DNA from: Clostridia bacterium | GTDB taxonomy: Bacteria > Bacillota > Clostridia > Oscillospirales > CAG-272 | Assembly (NCBI GenBank): GCA_017456005.1 | Contig: JAFTLJ010000023.1 | Location: forward strand, 1-46,173 | Direction: 5' to 3' | Length of the DNA stretch: 46,173 nucleotides | Shown here: one piece after another, positions 11,137 to 40,560 of the stretch | How the letters are laid out: each line of letters begins with the position of its first letter | Numbering within the stretch: the first letter of the stretch is position 1 | The notes under the pieces: generated by a model | The model's input: only the letters and a program-made list of their open reading frames with translations | Told to the model about the DNA's origin: nothing | The model's database searches: none | Position numbers and translations under genes: made by a program

Positions 11137-11847
11137 ATGAATTTTATCAAAGCGGAAAGCTATGAAGCTTTAAGCTGTGCTGCGGCGGAAATAATAGCCG
11201 CACAGATAGCAGAAAAGAAAAATGCCGTGCTGGGGCTTGCCACGGGCTCTTCGCCGCTGGGCACATACGCTTGCCTTAGCAAAATGTATGCGGAGGAACG
11301 AGCGGATTTTTCCGAGGTTACAAGCGTGAATTTGGACGAATACGTGGGCTTGAGCGCGGAAAACGAGCAAAGCTACCGTTATTTTATGAATAAAAACCTT
11401 TTTGACCATATAAATATAAGACCCGAAAACACGTTTGTGCCGAACGGCTGTGCCGAAGAGCTCGCACGCGAGGCGGCGGAATACGATGCGCTTATAGCGC
11501 GCCTCGGCGGTATAGACCTGCAACTGCTCGGCATAGGGCTCGATGGGCACATAGGCTTTAACGAGCCTGCGGAATTTTTTACAAAGGAAACGCATGTTAC
11601 AGAGCTGGATGCTTCTACCATAGAGGCGAACGCACGCTTTTTTGCACGGCGCGAGGATGTGCCAACAAAAGCTATAACAATGGGTATGGGAGCCATTATG
11701 GGCGCAAAGAAAATTCTGCTTATAGCAAACGGCAAAAAGAAGCGTGAAATACTCGAAAAGGCGATGTACGGCAAAATAACACCGCGTGTGCCTGCATCGA
11801 TTTTACAGCTTCACCCAAACGTTACGGTGATCTACAGCGAAATATAA
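11137..11847 (+). CDS. nagB: Glucosamine-6-phosphate deaminase
   Basis: The ATG at 11137 has GGAGGGA six bases upstream; the in-frame TTG at 11122 lies inside that signal and is rejected. The product has 236 residues. Signatures are LGLATGSSPLGTY (phosphate loop), VNLDEYVGL with the catalytic Asp, and LLGIGLDGHIGFNEP with the catalytic His. The enzyme converts GlcN-6-P to fructose-6-P and ammonia, or the reverse. Located with glmM and the GlmU-like acyltransferase, the reversible enzyme could feed cell-wall synthesis from fructose-6-P as well as break down amino sugars. The first copy of a three-copy repeat starts four bases after its stop codon. Confidence 0.93.
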   Translation: MNFIKAESYEALSCAAAEIIAAQIAEKKNAVLGLATGSSPLGTYACLSKMYAEERADFSEVTSVNLDEYVGLSAENEQSYRYFMNKNLFDHINIRPENTFVPNGCAEELAREAAEYDALIARLGGIDLQLLGIGLDGHIGFNEPAEFFTKETHVTELDASTIEANARFFARREDVPTKAITMGMGAIMGAKKILLIANGKKKREILEKAMYGKITPRVPASILQLHPNVTVIYSEI

Positions 11848-11850
11848 AAA

Positions 11851-11957
11851 TTTGCCTTCGGTAACTATAAAATGCTCGAAAAACGGGCATTTTTGCATAA
11901 GGAAAATTTTTTGAACAAGAAATTGCGCACTATTTGCGCGCAATTTCTCATGTTATA
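11851..11957 (+). repeat. Three-hairpin interspersed repeat, copy A
   Basis: This is one of three near-identical elements of about 108 bp. Hairpin 1 is TTGCC-TTC-GGTAA, hairpin 2 is AAAATGCTCG/CGGGCATTTT, and hairpin 3 is AAATTGCGC/GCGCAATTT; the spacer GCATAAGGAAAA and the end ATGTTATA are shared. This copy diverges most, yet its changes in hairpin 2 keep a G-U pair. It starts four bases after the nagB stop. Confidence 0.85.
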
Positions 11958-11960
11958 GAA

Positions 11961-11998
11961 AAAACGCACAGAGAAGAGCCTATTCTCTGTGTGTTTTT
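11961..11998 (+). terminator. Terminator between nagB and spoIIIAA
   Basis: A 15-bp stem (11961-11975 with 11983-11997, one G-U pair) ends in a T6 run. It directly follows repeat copy A and probably ends the glmM-nagB transcript. Confidence 0.75.
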
Positions 11999-30148: not shown

Positions 30149-30177
30149 TTGTAATTCGTATTTTTTGCTTGTATAAT
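30149..30177 (+). promoter_or_regulatory. Promoter of the XRE regulator
   Basis: TTGTAA (30149-30154), 17 bases, TATAAT (30172-30177). The palindrome 30182-30195 overlaps the expected start site. Confidence 0.65.
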
Positions 30178-30181
30178 GGTA

Positions 30182-30195
30182 TTGTACCGGTACAA
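30182..30195. promoter_or_regulatory. Perfect palindrome TTGTACCGGTACAA, likely operator
   Basis: The 14-base sequence equals its own reverse complement. It begins five bases after the -10 box of the regulator gene, where a bound repressor would block initiation. The encoded XRE protein is the natural candidate to bind it. Confidence 0.6.
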
Positions 30196-30216
30196 AAATG
30201 TTTCAGGAGAATTACA

Positions 30217-31038
30217 ATGATAAAAATAGGTGAGAAAATCAAATCTTTGCGAAAATCCAAAAGTATATCGCAGGAAACCTTGGCAGAGTATCTGAGCGTT
30301 TCTTTCCAAGCTGTTTCAAAATGGGAAACGGGCGCGGCTATGCCGGATATAACCTTGGTGCCTGCGATAGCTTCGTTTTTTGGGATATCCACAGACGAGC
30401 TTTTTGATTTTAACGTATATGAAATCGAAAAGAACGTGGAAAAAATAGTACACGAACACAAAAAATATTATGATACCGACAGGGAGAAGTGCGAAGCGGT
30501 CATACGCGAAGGGCTTACACGTTACCCCGGTAACGATACGCTTCTTAATTGCCTTGTGGGGGTTATACCTGTGCCGGAAAGAGCAGGCGAGGTAATAGAG
30601 CTGTGCAAAGCACTTGCAGAGAGCACGCGATTTGACGATATACGCATAGATGCGTACAGAATAATGGCGGAGGCATATGCCTCTATAGGCGAGCTTTCGT
30701 ATGCCAAAGATGCTATAGAGCATATACCGGAAATATATTTTACAAAGCTTGGCGTTATGGCAGATTTACTTGAAGGAGAAGACAAGCTTTACGGCGCGAC
30801 AAAGCAACGCACTCTCGCTTTTGATTGGCTTATAACGAGCTGTGTGCGTCTTGCGGAATATTACAAAGAAAAAGGGGAAGTGCGAAAGGCGGAAATTCAG
30901 CTTACTATGGCAAAAAACGTGCTTCTTTCCGCAAAAGACGATTTTGCAACAAAGTACACGCGCAGTTTGTACGAGGCTTACGGCGAAGGAATGGCAGAGC
31001 TTGAAGAACTGCTCGCAGATTTAAAAAAAGCACCATAA
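30217..31038 (+). CDS. XRE-family transcriptional regulator with helical C-terminal domain
   Basis: The ATG at 30217 follows CAGGAGA and gives 273 residues. Residues 1-62 are an HTH_3 domain (IKSLRKSKSISQETLAEYLSVSFQAVSKWETG). The rest (about 90-270) is wholly helical with repeated pairs of helices resembling TPR units, as in regulators that respond to peptides or protein partners. It stands alone after the cysE-HAD pair. A perfect palindrome over its promoter suggests autoregulation. Target genes unknown. Confidence 0.88.
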   Translation: MIKIGEKIKSLRKSKSISQETLAEYLSVSFQAVSKWETGAAMPDITLVPAIASFFGISTDELFDFNVYEIEKNVEKIVHEHKKYYDTDREKCEAVIREGLTRYPGNDTLLNCLVGVIPVPERAGEVIELCKALAESTRFDDIRIDAYRIMAEAYASIGELSYAKDAIEHIPEIYFTKLGVMADLLEGEDKLYGATKQRTLAFDWLITSCVRLAEYYKEKGEVRKAEIQLTMAKNVLLSAKDDFATKYTRSLYEAYGEGMAELEELLADLKKAP

Positions 31039-31051
31039 CGGTGCTTTTTTT
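31023..31051 (+). terminator. Terminator of the XRE gene
   Basis: AAAAAAAGCACC (31023-31034) pairs with GGTGCTTTTTTT (31040-31051), overlapping the end of the gene. Repeat copy B begins at its last base. Confidence 0.85.
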
Positions 31052-31159
31052 ATAACATAGGAAATTGCGCGCAAATCGTGCGCAATTGCTTGTTCAAAAA
31101 AAGTTTTCCTTATGCAAAAATGCCCGATTTTCGGGCATTTTATAGTTGCCGAAGGCAAC
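31051..31159 (-). repeat. Three-hairpin interspersed repeat, copy B (reversed)
   Basis: Read on the minus strand this is nearly identical to copies A and C: GTTGCC-TTC-GGCAAC, AAAATGCCCGA/TCGGGCATTTT, spacer GCATAAGGAAAAC, and AATTGCGC/GCGCAATT with the end ATGTTATA. Unlike the other copies it is not just behind a gene read in its own direction. Confidence 0.85.
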
Positions 31160-31260
31160 TTTTTTATTATGGAGCTATAAGGGCATATGCGGAAACAGAT
31201 TGTTAATATTTTATTTTGCGATTTTTTGGCAAAGTGCGTTTTTTACCTGCTTTTACGTCG

Positions 31261-31289
31261 TTGACATATGGCGGATTTTGCGGTATAAT
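31261..31289 (+). promoter_or_regulatory. Perfect consensus promoter of the hydrolase-acyltransferase operon
   Basis: TTGACA (31261-31266), 17 bases, TATAAT (31284-31289), 38 bases before the start codon. Confidence 0.88.
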
Positions 31290-38792: not shown

Positions 38793-39506
38793 ATGAACAA
38801 TAACCTATATAAAAATAAATATTTTTCCGTTCTTGGCGATTCTATAAGTACATTGGAATGGTACAGTACGCCGGAATACGCTTCATATTACGATACTGAA
38901 AAAAAGCTTTTGAGCGGTGTATTTACCCCTAAGTACACTTGGTGGGGGCAGACTGCAGAGTATTTTGGAGGCGAAATACTTATAAACAATTCTTTTGCGG
39001 GAAGTACAGTTTGCAAGCGCGCGGGCTGCGAGATACCATCCTACGGATGTAGCGATGAGCGCACGGCAAGCCTGCACCGCGGCGATATCGCACCGAATGT
39101 AATTATGGTTTTTATGGGCATGAACGATTGGGGATATGGCATAGCGCCGACGCCCACACAAGAAAGACAGAAAGAGGAACTTTCCGTGTTTTCCACAGCA
39201 TATACGGCTATGCTGAAAAAACTGAGAAAAAATTATCCGAAGGCAGAGCTTTGGTGCTTCACCTTACCTGTAGGAAAACGCAAAGATGGCGAAGAATTTC
39301 CGTATTGCTACGGAGGGCGGCACATAGAAGAATACTGCAACGTTATACGCGACTGCGCGGCGCTCTTCGGCTGCCGTTTGATAGACCTTTACCGCTTTTC
39401 GGCGCCGTATAGCTCGCTAGATGGCTTCCACCCCGATGCAGATGGAATGAAAACTCTCGCCGAAGCGATTATTTTACAAATAGAAAGTGAGGTGCAAGGC
39501 ACATGA
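38793..39506 (+). CDS. SGNH/GDSL-type esterase
   Basis: The ATG at 38793 follows AAGGGGTGGGGG. The 237-residue protein has block I FSVLGDSISTLEW with the catalytic Ser, the oxyanion Gly in NNSFAGSTVC, block III MGMNDW and block V DGFHPDADG with Asp-His. Such esterases often deacetylate polysaccharides. No signal peptide is present. It overlaps the TatD gene by four bases. Confidence 0.9.
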   Translation: MNNNLYKNKYFSVLGDSISTLEWYSTPEYASYYDTEKKLLSGVFTPKYTWWGQTAEYFGGEILINNSFAGSTVCKRAGCEIPSYGCSDERTASLHRGDIAPNVIMVFMGMNDWGYGIAPTPTQERQKEELSVFSTAYTAMLKKLRKNYPKAELWCFTLPVGKRKDGEEFPYCYGGRHIEEYCNVIRDCAALFGCRLIDLYRFSAPYSSLDGFHPDADGMKTLAEAIILQIESEVQGT

Positions 39507-40396
39507 TAATAGATTCACACACACACTATGCTCATGCACGTTACGACAAAGAAATTCCTTATCTTTGCCCGGCAGACGGGGAATATTCTATAGGGCGCGC
39601 AGACAGAGAAAGTTTAATTTCGGAAATGCGAAAAAGCGGCATAACCGGATTTATCGAACCTTCCATAGGCTTTGATACAATAGAAAAACAGCTGGAACTG
39701 GTAAAATCACACGAAAACTTTATGTGGAGCGCGCTTGGAGTGCACCCCACAAGGTGCATACATACCTCATGGAAAAAAAGAAAAAAACTTTTGGAATATG
39801 CAAAAAAGTATTCTGTAGTGGCTATAGGGGAAACCGGGCTGGATTACCACCTGACGCGGCGCGAGCAACGCCGATTTTGGCAGAAGATATGGTTTACATA
39901 CCAGATAAAGCTTGCAGACAAGCTGAAGCTGCCTCTTGTTTTGCACGTGCGCGGGGCAGATGCAGATGCACTGAAAATTCTTAAAAGATATAAAAATCGT
40001 TTGCATGGCGGAGTGGTCCATTGCTTTGGCGGAAATTATGAATGTGCGAAAGAGTATATTGCGCTTGGGTTTGCTATCGGAATTGGGGGCAAGCTTTTGG
40101 CAGGCGACAGTGAAGCGACAGAACTCAGCGATACTGTAAAAAAAGCTCCGCTTTACAGTTTGTTGCTCGAAACAGATGCTCCATTTGTTTTTCCCGATAT
40201 AAAAGGGCTGAAATGTGGCAGCAATCAACGTAAAAAGCTGTGTAATTCTTCTTTAATTTTACCTCTTGTTTTGCAAAAGATCGCCTTTTTGCGCGGCGAA
40301 GACAAAAAGACAGTGGAGGATATTATATATGAAAACACCCTTCGCGTTTTCAACTTGCAGGGTAATGAAAGTGAAACACGGTTGAGGAAAAAATAA
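39503..40396 (+). CDS. TatD-family hydrolase
   Basis: The 297-residue protein has the TIM-barrel metal motifs of TatD: IDSHTHYAH, GETGLDYH, LVLHVRGADADAL, GGVVHCFGGNYE and LLLETDAPF. TatD proteins are metal-dependent deoxyribonucleases. The N-terminus includes a short insert (about 15-40) relative to the family minimum. It is translated from the overlap ATGA at the end of the SGNH gene. Copy C of the repeat lies four bases after its stop. Confidence 0.9.
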   Translation: MIIDSHTHYAHARYDKEIPYLCPADGEYSIGRADRESLISEMRKSGITGFIEPSIGFDTIEKQLELVKSHENFMWSALGVHPTRCIHTSWKKRKKLLEYAKKYSVVAIGETGLDYHLTRREQRRFWQKIWFTYQIKLADKLKLPLVLHVRGADADALKILKRYKNRLHGGVVHCFGGNYECAKEYIALGFAIGIGGKLLAGDSEATELSDTVKKAPLYSLLLETDAPFVFPDIKGLKCGSNQRKKLCNSSLILPLVLQKIAFLRGEDKKTVEDIIYENTLRVFNLQGNESETRLRKK

Positions 40397-40400
40397 AAAA

Positions 40401-40510
40401 GTTGCCTTCGGCAACTACAAAATGCCCGAAAATCGGGCATTTTTACATAAGGAAAACTTTTTTTGAACAAGCAAAATTGCACCGCTTCGCGCGCAATTTT
40501 CTATGTTATA
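40401..40510 (+). repeat. Three-hairpin interspersed repeat, copy C
   Basis: GTTGCC-TTC-GGCAAC, AAAATGCCCGA/TCGGGCATTTT, spacer ACATAAGGAAAAC and a third hairpin AAAATTGC/GCAATTTT whose inner part differs from copies A and B but can still pair (CGC-TTC-GCG). The end ATGTTATA is shared. It begins right after the TatD stop. Confidence 0.85.
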
Positions 40511-40515
40511 AATGT

Positions 40516-40560
40516 AAAAACTCTCGTAGTTTTTTATGAACGGCGAGAGTTTTTGTAAGT
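40516..40560. terminator. Terminator between repeat copy C and the secreted-protein gene
   Basis: AAAACTCTCG (about 40516-40525) pairs with CGAGAGTTTT (about 40544-40553) around an 18-base loop. T runs on both sides allow it to end the convergent secreted-protein gene. Confidence 0.65.

Follow-up and report, generated by a model that had tools for sequence, protein, structure and literature searches.

A non-coding unit of 114 letters occurs three times in the window, that is, in the whole 46,173-nucleotide stretch of DNA analysed here, and this locus raises the question whether such a unit is a structure kept by its host or an element that moves, and if it moves, by which enzyme. The window makes up a single contig in a 2.12-Mb Clostridia draft genome (G000; 101 contigs, 94.65% complete). 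An earlier note had reported the three copies, here A, B and C, and their places and strands were confirmed by sequence; we took the A-run as the start of the unit and ATAA (ATAG in copy A) as its end. Copy A (112 bp, 11847..11958, plus strand, left boundary uncertain by 1-2 bases), delimited by sequence, BLAST and an empty site in sister genome G001, lies between a glucosamine-6-phosphate isomerase-like gene and spoIIIAA. Copy B (114 bp, 31050..31163, minus strand) lies between an HTH gene (30169-31038) and an alpha/beta-hydrolase gene, and copy C (115 bp, 40397..40511, plus strand), which has a variant right-end hairpin, is located directly after the stop codon of a TatD-like gene (39503-40396) and before a gene without assignment. 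Two copies, A and C, do follow a stop codon, as the note had it, in each case that of a gene on the same strand, but they start at or next to it and not four bases beyond it; copy B is found past a terminator and is antisense to the upstream HTH gene. Beyond copy B, upstream of the hydrolase gene, a perfect sigma-70 consensus promoter (TTGACA-17-TATAAT) is present at 31261-31289.

Read from the left, the unit consists of A4-G, a left hairpin (GTTGCC-TTC-GGCAAC), a second stem, the spacer CATAAGGAAAAC, T6-7 and a domain, D2, made up of GAACAAGC, an inner hairpin and TCCTATGTTATAA; in the window's genus each unit has three stem-loops, and its right end is hairpin-AATTTCCTATGTTATAA. In copy B, on the minus strand, the left hairpin (31145..31159) adjoins the A-run and corresponds to the hairpin at the left end of the Y2 elements described below, while the second stem, AAAATGCCCGA-AAA-TCGGGCATTTT, occupies 31117..31141 and the right-end domain D2 31050..31095. 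The mean column identity of the three copies is 92%, and their fold z values are -5.8, -5.5 and -5.4, with none of 200 shuffles as good for any copy. The motif GTTGCC/GGCAAC, previously ascribed to all three, is found in B and C, whereas copy A has TTTGCC/GGTAAC, with one broken pair and one G-U; likewise, the T-G pair said to keep hairpin 2 of copy A does hold, but the innermost A-T pair is lost. A coding unit was considered and rejected on inspection, as a short TTG...TAA frame exists in A and B but is broken by indels in C and in relatives.

The stems covary when tested, and variation without regard to pairing, which would have spoken against a structured repeat, is not what the copies show. 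In D2, 6 of 11 pairs are doubly changed, and 0 of 500 shuffles reach either this count or the covariation score; the test used 63 of 74 distinct sequences, the 11 dropped being near-duplicates and the internal deletions L019, L020 and L053. Some carriers have TTACA...TGTAA in place of AACA...TGTT, and Butyrivibrio units read ATAACATAGGAA/TTCCTATGTTAT where a unit of the same type, L254, reads ATATCATAGGAA/TTCCTATGATAT. For the left hairpin, 31 units gave 10 doubly changed cells against a shuffled mean of 3.6, with a covariation score reached by 0 of 500 shuffles; only 2 of its pairs are doubly changed, a number that 166 of 500 shuffles reach. Over the whole fold, 8 of 29 pairs are doubly changed in 33 model-fitted units (13 of 500 shuffles reach this), in an alignment that leans to the structure. 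A closing helix from A-run to T-run (P1) can pair in 61 of 108 units (shuffled mean 23, maximum 36), but it was set aside, since only 5 of 31 distinct combinations pair and its covariation rests on one pair. The Butyrivibrio-type units L152, L155, L164 and L254 end in the right end's own palindrome, which in L254 is a compensated variant.

The earlier note had expected further copies elsewhere in the genome, and these are present. BLAST with copy B gave 34 matches in the own draft, of which by reading the first 20 are near-full, the next 6 truncated and the remaining 8 short or reverse-strand palindrome, which puts the draft at ~20 copies that are nearly complete and 6 or more that are truncated. 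From 18 of the 20 near-full units we built a covariance model, and this found 31 matches in the same genome at E<=0.01; some matches of both searches are the reverse strand of palindromic stems, and this many matches exclude chance as an explanation for the repeat. The model gave 10, 8, 3 and 8 matches in the sister species G001, G002, G003 and G005, respectively, while in G004, a draft 98% complete, neither the model nor right-end searches found a unit. With two mismatches allowed, the right end was found 19 times in G000 and 7 times in G001, and its reversed control once in each.

Across the class, the distribution of the unit is patchy. A 19-mer of the right end, at one mismatch, is present in 21 of 391 genomes (reversed control 0; single matches such as L256 and L259 we read as chance) and the D2 model matches 19 of 391, with no other genome of the same order matching in either sample. 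In the species collection, 76 stretches contain a 22-base pattern of the right end; judged by title they come from 13 assemblies, which include Acetivibrio sp. MSJd-27 and Butyrivibrio proteoclasticus P18. The 5' bodies differ among carriers, while the right end is common to them, and 16 of 108 relaxed right-end matches are without a D2 motif in the 130 nt read upstream. In viral contigs a 21-mer of the right end was found in 0 stretches, and the 2 and 6 matches of looser patterns there are read as chance; BLAST of copy B against plasmids and phages gave no match, and a window-type 32-mer gave 0 matches in a genome collection that may omit the own genome. A literature search that included four sequence strings, with most subscription journals outside its scope, found no paper on the repeat. 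Several minor observations concern individual carriers: a lone right-end match is found in another genus of the family (L035, G030:C56:67475-67506, E 1.9e-5); L134 (JALEIO010000136.1, 135-782) has three tandem 313-bp repeats with one unit in each, and a flank like that of L134 occurs in L172 with another unit; and in G005 a lysine riboswitch match lies beside a type II unit (L049, 1244-1410). The right flank of L002 (query bases ~236-309) contains a second short dispersed repeat of ~65 bp, which is present at dozens of places in six genus genomes, also in G004.

If the unit moves, sister genomes should contain sites without it. For 12 own loci, the flanks served as queries against the genus; 20 regions were fetched, and 8 pairs at 6 own loci could be aligned; copy B was outside the flank query and copy C had no orthologous flank pair. 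The unit is absent from the sister genome in 5 of the 8 alignments, representing 4 of the 6 loci: copy A (L017) and L015 against G001, L019 against G003, and L016 against both G001 and G003. The L016 site is less clean because the relatives have a different terminator hairpin there. For L019, the empty site in G003 reads GGATATTAAAAAACGAGAGG, and the filled site TTAA|AAAAGTTGCC and TTATAA|AAAACGAGAGG. As for the other alignments, L006 and L019 have other sequence at the site in G001, and at L021 the G001 unit lies on the opposite side of the intergenic terminator. On these sequence comparisons we regard the unit as mobile, and the earlier reading of a mobile structured repeat is borne out by copy number, empty sites and covariation.

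These data bear directly on the alternative that the units are a host 3'-UTR structure or terminator that has spread by being useful. Units do lie after genes and between convergent genes (by crude ORF calls), and the left hairpin and T-run of copies B and C score as a terminator on the antisense strand; a role as a 3'-end structure is plausible from the predicted folds, while the antisense terminator is probably a side effect. We nevertheless consider this alternative improbable as an account of the repeat, given the empty orthologous sites, the lack of units in G004, the patchy occurrence over the class, the antisense placements, and the ends held in common with transposons.

The insertion sites themselves have a recognizable layout. 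A separate terminator-like hairpin, which the earlier note does not mention, lies within 5-9 nt of the right end of each window copy: CACAGAGAA/TTCTCTGTG at 11967..11991 beside copy A, whose stem is also present in G001 without the unit; GCACC/GGTGC at 31030..31044 beside copy B; and CTCTCG/CGAGAG, with a loop of 17, at 40521..40549 beside copy C. Detection depends on the method: a consensus scan lists the hairpin of copy A and not those of B and C, our first hairpin detector accepts that of B and rejects that of C, and the second detector does the reverse. By eye, the right end abuts the A-tract of such a hairpin in 18 of 20 full own copies, L002 and L018 being the ones without. The first detector finds a hairpin beside the right end in 14 of 17 own units and 56 of 112 units overall, compared to 6 of 560 for shuffled sequence, 1 of 111 on the upstream side and 55 of 3020 at random positions; among ATAA-A sites, the figures are 60 of 883 for background and 30 of 98 after stops. 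With the second detector, the count is 10 of 16 for own units (p = 0.0025) and 57 of 100 for single units (p = 6e-8), the after-stop sites giving 51 of 206. The enrichment over after-stop A-tracts is only 1.6 to 2.7-fold, and for about half of the units no hairpin is accepted next to the right end (56 of 112 and 43 of 100 with the first and second detector, respectively); L002, L018, L131 and L156 sit before ordinary sequence. In 12 of 112 cases another unit follows within 140 nt. Terminators of low-GC Firmicutes commonly carry 5' A-tracts (excerpt of PMC1590033).

The left flank is NTAA in 85 of 102 units, the right end is ATAA in 97 of 102, and the right flank is an A-run, so the insertions carry no target duplication. 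In 65 of 102 callable units (shuffled mean 2.9, maximum 7), a hairpin with 4 or more pairs sets in directly behind the A-run. Comparison of unit ends and flanks revealed neither terminal inverted repeats nor a target duplication, and a MITE of the DDE type was rejected for lack of both. The kinship to BOX or ERIC elements suggested before is not supported either: the window has no Rfam match at gathering score (over the units in 8 loci there are sub-threshold matches only, at E<=5), inverted terminal repeats are lacking, and the parent is probably of IS91 type. As a whole, the first reading is partly supported.

This likely parent was recognized in Butyrivibrio P18, where a locus with a Y2 (IS91-type) transposase gene is flanked by both unit-like ends. 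On its left side, the stop of the upstream gene is followed by the element as TATAA|AAAAGTGCC-TGC-GGCAC; the protein has 400 aa with PF04986 (Y2_Tnp) and PF14319 (Zn_Tnp_IS91), and on the right side there is a small frame, a hairpin with AATTTCCTATTAAATAA|AAAA, and a terminator. Related elements were found in Butyrivibrio, in the window's genus (G001, L343), in gut scaffolds and on Fusobacteria plasmids, the relatives of the P18 protein examined being 7 of 4135 plasmid records, 4 of 6 phage records and one viral contig. In these elements, the A-run-plus-hairpin end stands on the upstream side of the gene for the Y2 protein, and the end with hairpin-AATTTCCT...TAA on its downstream side; both ends are present in L344, L348, L349 (internally cut), L352, L357 and L358, and one end in L343, L347 and L350. 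The left-end layout precedes the gene in L347 and L348 (65% and 55% identical to the P18 protein), L349, L350 (called by reading, the script having halted at an earlier A-run) and, on Fusobacteria plasmids, in L352, L357 and L358 (32-34% identical). Of the 12 Y2 loci whose 3' side is covered, 8 have the AATTTCCT...TAA right end (L343, L344, L348, L349, L352, L356, L357 and L358), and it is absent from L351, L353, L354 and L355, all distant relatives. This pattern was written after 5 positive loci had been seen, and 3 of 5 loci fetched afterwards match; it occurs in 16 of 2400 shuffled windows, and has 0 matches in 42 Y1, RVT_1 and IS110 loci (233,708 bases). In all 8 matching loci a hairpin follows the right-end A-run, and per locus between 0 and 12 of 50 shuffled versions of the stretch do as well. 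Mini-units and Y2 elements are inserted alike: both follow TAA, and the right end of each abuts a hairpin's A-tract. The right ends fold alike while their letters differ, with outer stems AACA/TGTT, TTTAAT/ATTAAA and TTATA/TATAA, the predicted minimum for L352 being another, weak fold; the right end of the unit may also have a likeness to dif/Xer. Between the Y2 gene and the right end of L344 there is a small acidic frame of ~58 aa.

Because the same two ends and the habit of landing at an A-tract hairpin are found on Y2 elements, the repeat is most readily understood as non-autonomous and descended from an IS91 group that lands at terminators, and we hold it to be very probably a small, non-coding offshoot of transposons with a Y2 HUH transposase. 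It is unlikely that a different enzyme moves the units and that the Y2 elements have only the landing layout in common with them. In favour of such a different enzyme, no Y2 gene is found in G000 or in most carrier drafts: a PF04986 profile search found none in the own draft, where at 94.65% completeness absence is unproven, and Y2_Tnp is present in 2 of 18 genomes searched, including G001, counts that rest on drafts, which lose repeated genes. The 5' bodies point both ways. Those of the SUG37 and RGIG3586 mini-units resemble the left ends of L344, L347 and L348 (0-2 of 300 shuffles reach this), the window-type body is weakly like Y2 left ends, resembling that of L344 (1 of 300 shuffles) and not those of L347 or L348 (181 and 63 of 300), and the Acetivibrio-type body has no clear likeness to any. 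On the other hand, the right-end core AATTTCCT...TAA, the left-end layout and the target layout all coincide, and a Y2 gene with such a right end is present in the same genus (G001, L343).

Other known movers fit less well. An IS200/IS605 (Y1) element would also have hairpins at both ends, no inverted repeats and no duplication, but Y1_Tnp is not found in G000, is present in 2 of 6 genus genomes with internal stops in both, and is absent from 4 of 9 other carriers; as 0 of 23 Y1 loci have the right-end 15-mer within 2 mismatches, we judge this origin highly improbable. Group IIC introns insert just after the T-tract of a terminator, and on the other strand the unit does lie directly after such a tract; however, G000 lacks RVT_1, as do 10 of 17 other genomes (9 of the 10 are carriers), and at 0 of 17 RVT_1 loci was the right end found with up to 2 mismatches, which makes an RNA-mediated insertion of this kind scarcely credible. 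IS110 was rejected as a mover: it is present in 4 of 18 genomes, and these include G004, where units are lacking. Overall, 0 of 44 fetched Y1, RVT_1 and IS110 loci have the 15-mer within 2 mismatches, a match that is weak alone, being present in 7 of 213 shuffled 3-kb windows.

Returning to the IS91-type derivation, we suggest that a Y2 enzyme supplied in trans would cut after TAA at the right, ori-like end, run off one strand, and stop at the A-tract foot of the left hairpin, which is the ter-like end, with rolling-circle and strand steps by which the unit may transpose. The enzyme would take a terminator with a 5' A-tract as target because its layout, A-tract and hairpin, equals that of the left end. 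Each insertion would recreate a new A-tract foot at the left end, so that head-to-tail tandems could arise. Full elements also stand in tandem: in L357, a Fusobacterium varium plasmid (AP017969.1), the right end of one Y2 element is directly followed by the left end of the next. In broader terms, we tentatively propose, as an idea that falls a little short of an even chance, that an IS91-type group in Clostridia and Fusobacteria picks its sites by shape, namely an A-tract with a hairpin foot, be it the group's own left end or any intrinsic terminator. Terminators would then be natural landing sites, each landing would plant another, and mini-units with swapped 5' bodies would ride on the enzyme across the class.

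IS91 itself needs a GAAC/CAAG tetranucleotide target, whereas the site of the unit is TAA before an A-tract, usually with a hairpin, and lacks GAAC/CAAG. We know of no short non-autonomous units of such kind for IS91. We class the units as non-autonomous derivatives of an IS91-type group with this unusual landing rule. IS91 and ISCR elements have two distinct structured ends, ori and ter, with ter on the promoter side of the transposase and a presumed rolling-circle mechanism (excerpt of PMC13393415). In line with this, the ends of our parent candidates also differ, with the hairpin-foot end upstream of the gene.

Among repeats, the nearest by habit would be EFAR, which we set beside the unit by description. 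Empty sites of EFAR are unrelated stem-loops, and its targets lose part of the stem on insertion, whereas at copy A, L015 and L019 the hairpin seen in the empty site is retained. EFAR, or Efa-1, of Enterococcus faecalis is a short intergenic unit of 163 nt with adjacent stem-loops (excerpt of PMC2267715), lies near 3' ends of genes (excerpt of PMC1590033) and is listed among the MITEs (excerpt of PMC3733652). Adjacent stem-loop domains in a short intergenic unit are shared with the window repeat, while the one Enterococcus Y2 locus read (L354) is without the repeat's ends. In Helitrons, which are also HUH elements, a terminal hairpin acts as transposition terminator (excerpt of PMC4778049). 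They differ in being eukaryotic and in having a helicase. RUP has inverted ends, by which it differs from the window repeat, and an IS630-type helper. Together with BOX and SPRITE, it belongs to the small structured repeats of Streptococcus pneumoniae read as parasitic (excerpt of PMC3049150). REP/BIME are small palindromic units with a proposed movement in trans by RAYT (excerpts of PMC2817692 and PMC3733652). Their GTAG/CGTC tag is absent from the unit ends, and the REP enzyme is a Y1, not a Y2.

In L051, L075, L078, L086 and L092, the same right end is joined to another repeat that is widespread (CACCTCATCCGTCAGC, CCTTCCCC/GGGGAAGG). A similar arrangement is seen in L222 and next to the L343 Y2 element, and a hairpin of this kind adjoins the right end of the Y2 element of G001. 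The proposed origin connects a repeat that had no explanation with a named family of enzymes, and it opens structure-guided site choice to testing. Landing beside terminators without breaking them would allow spread at little cost, and annotators should bear in mind that terminator-like or 3'-UTR hairpins found repeatedly in gut Clostridia could be mobile.
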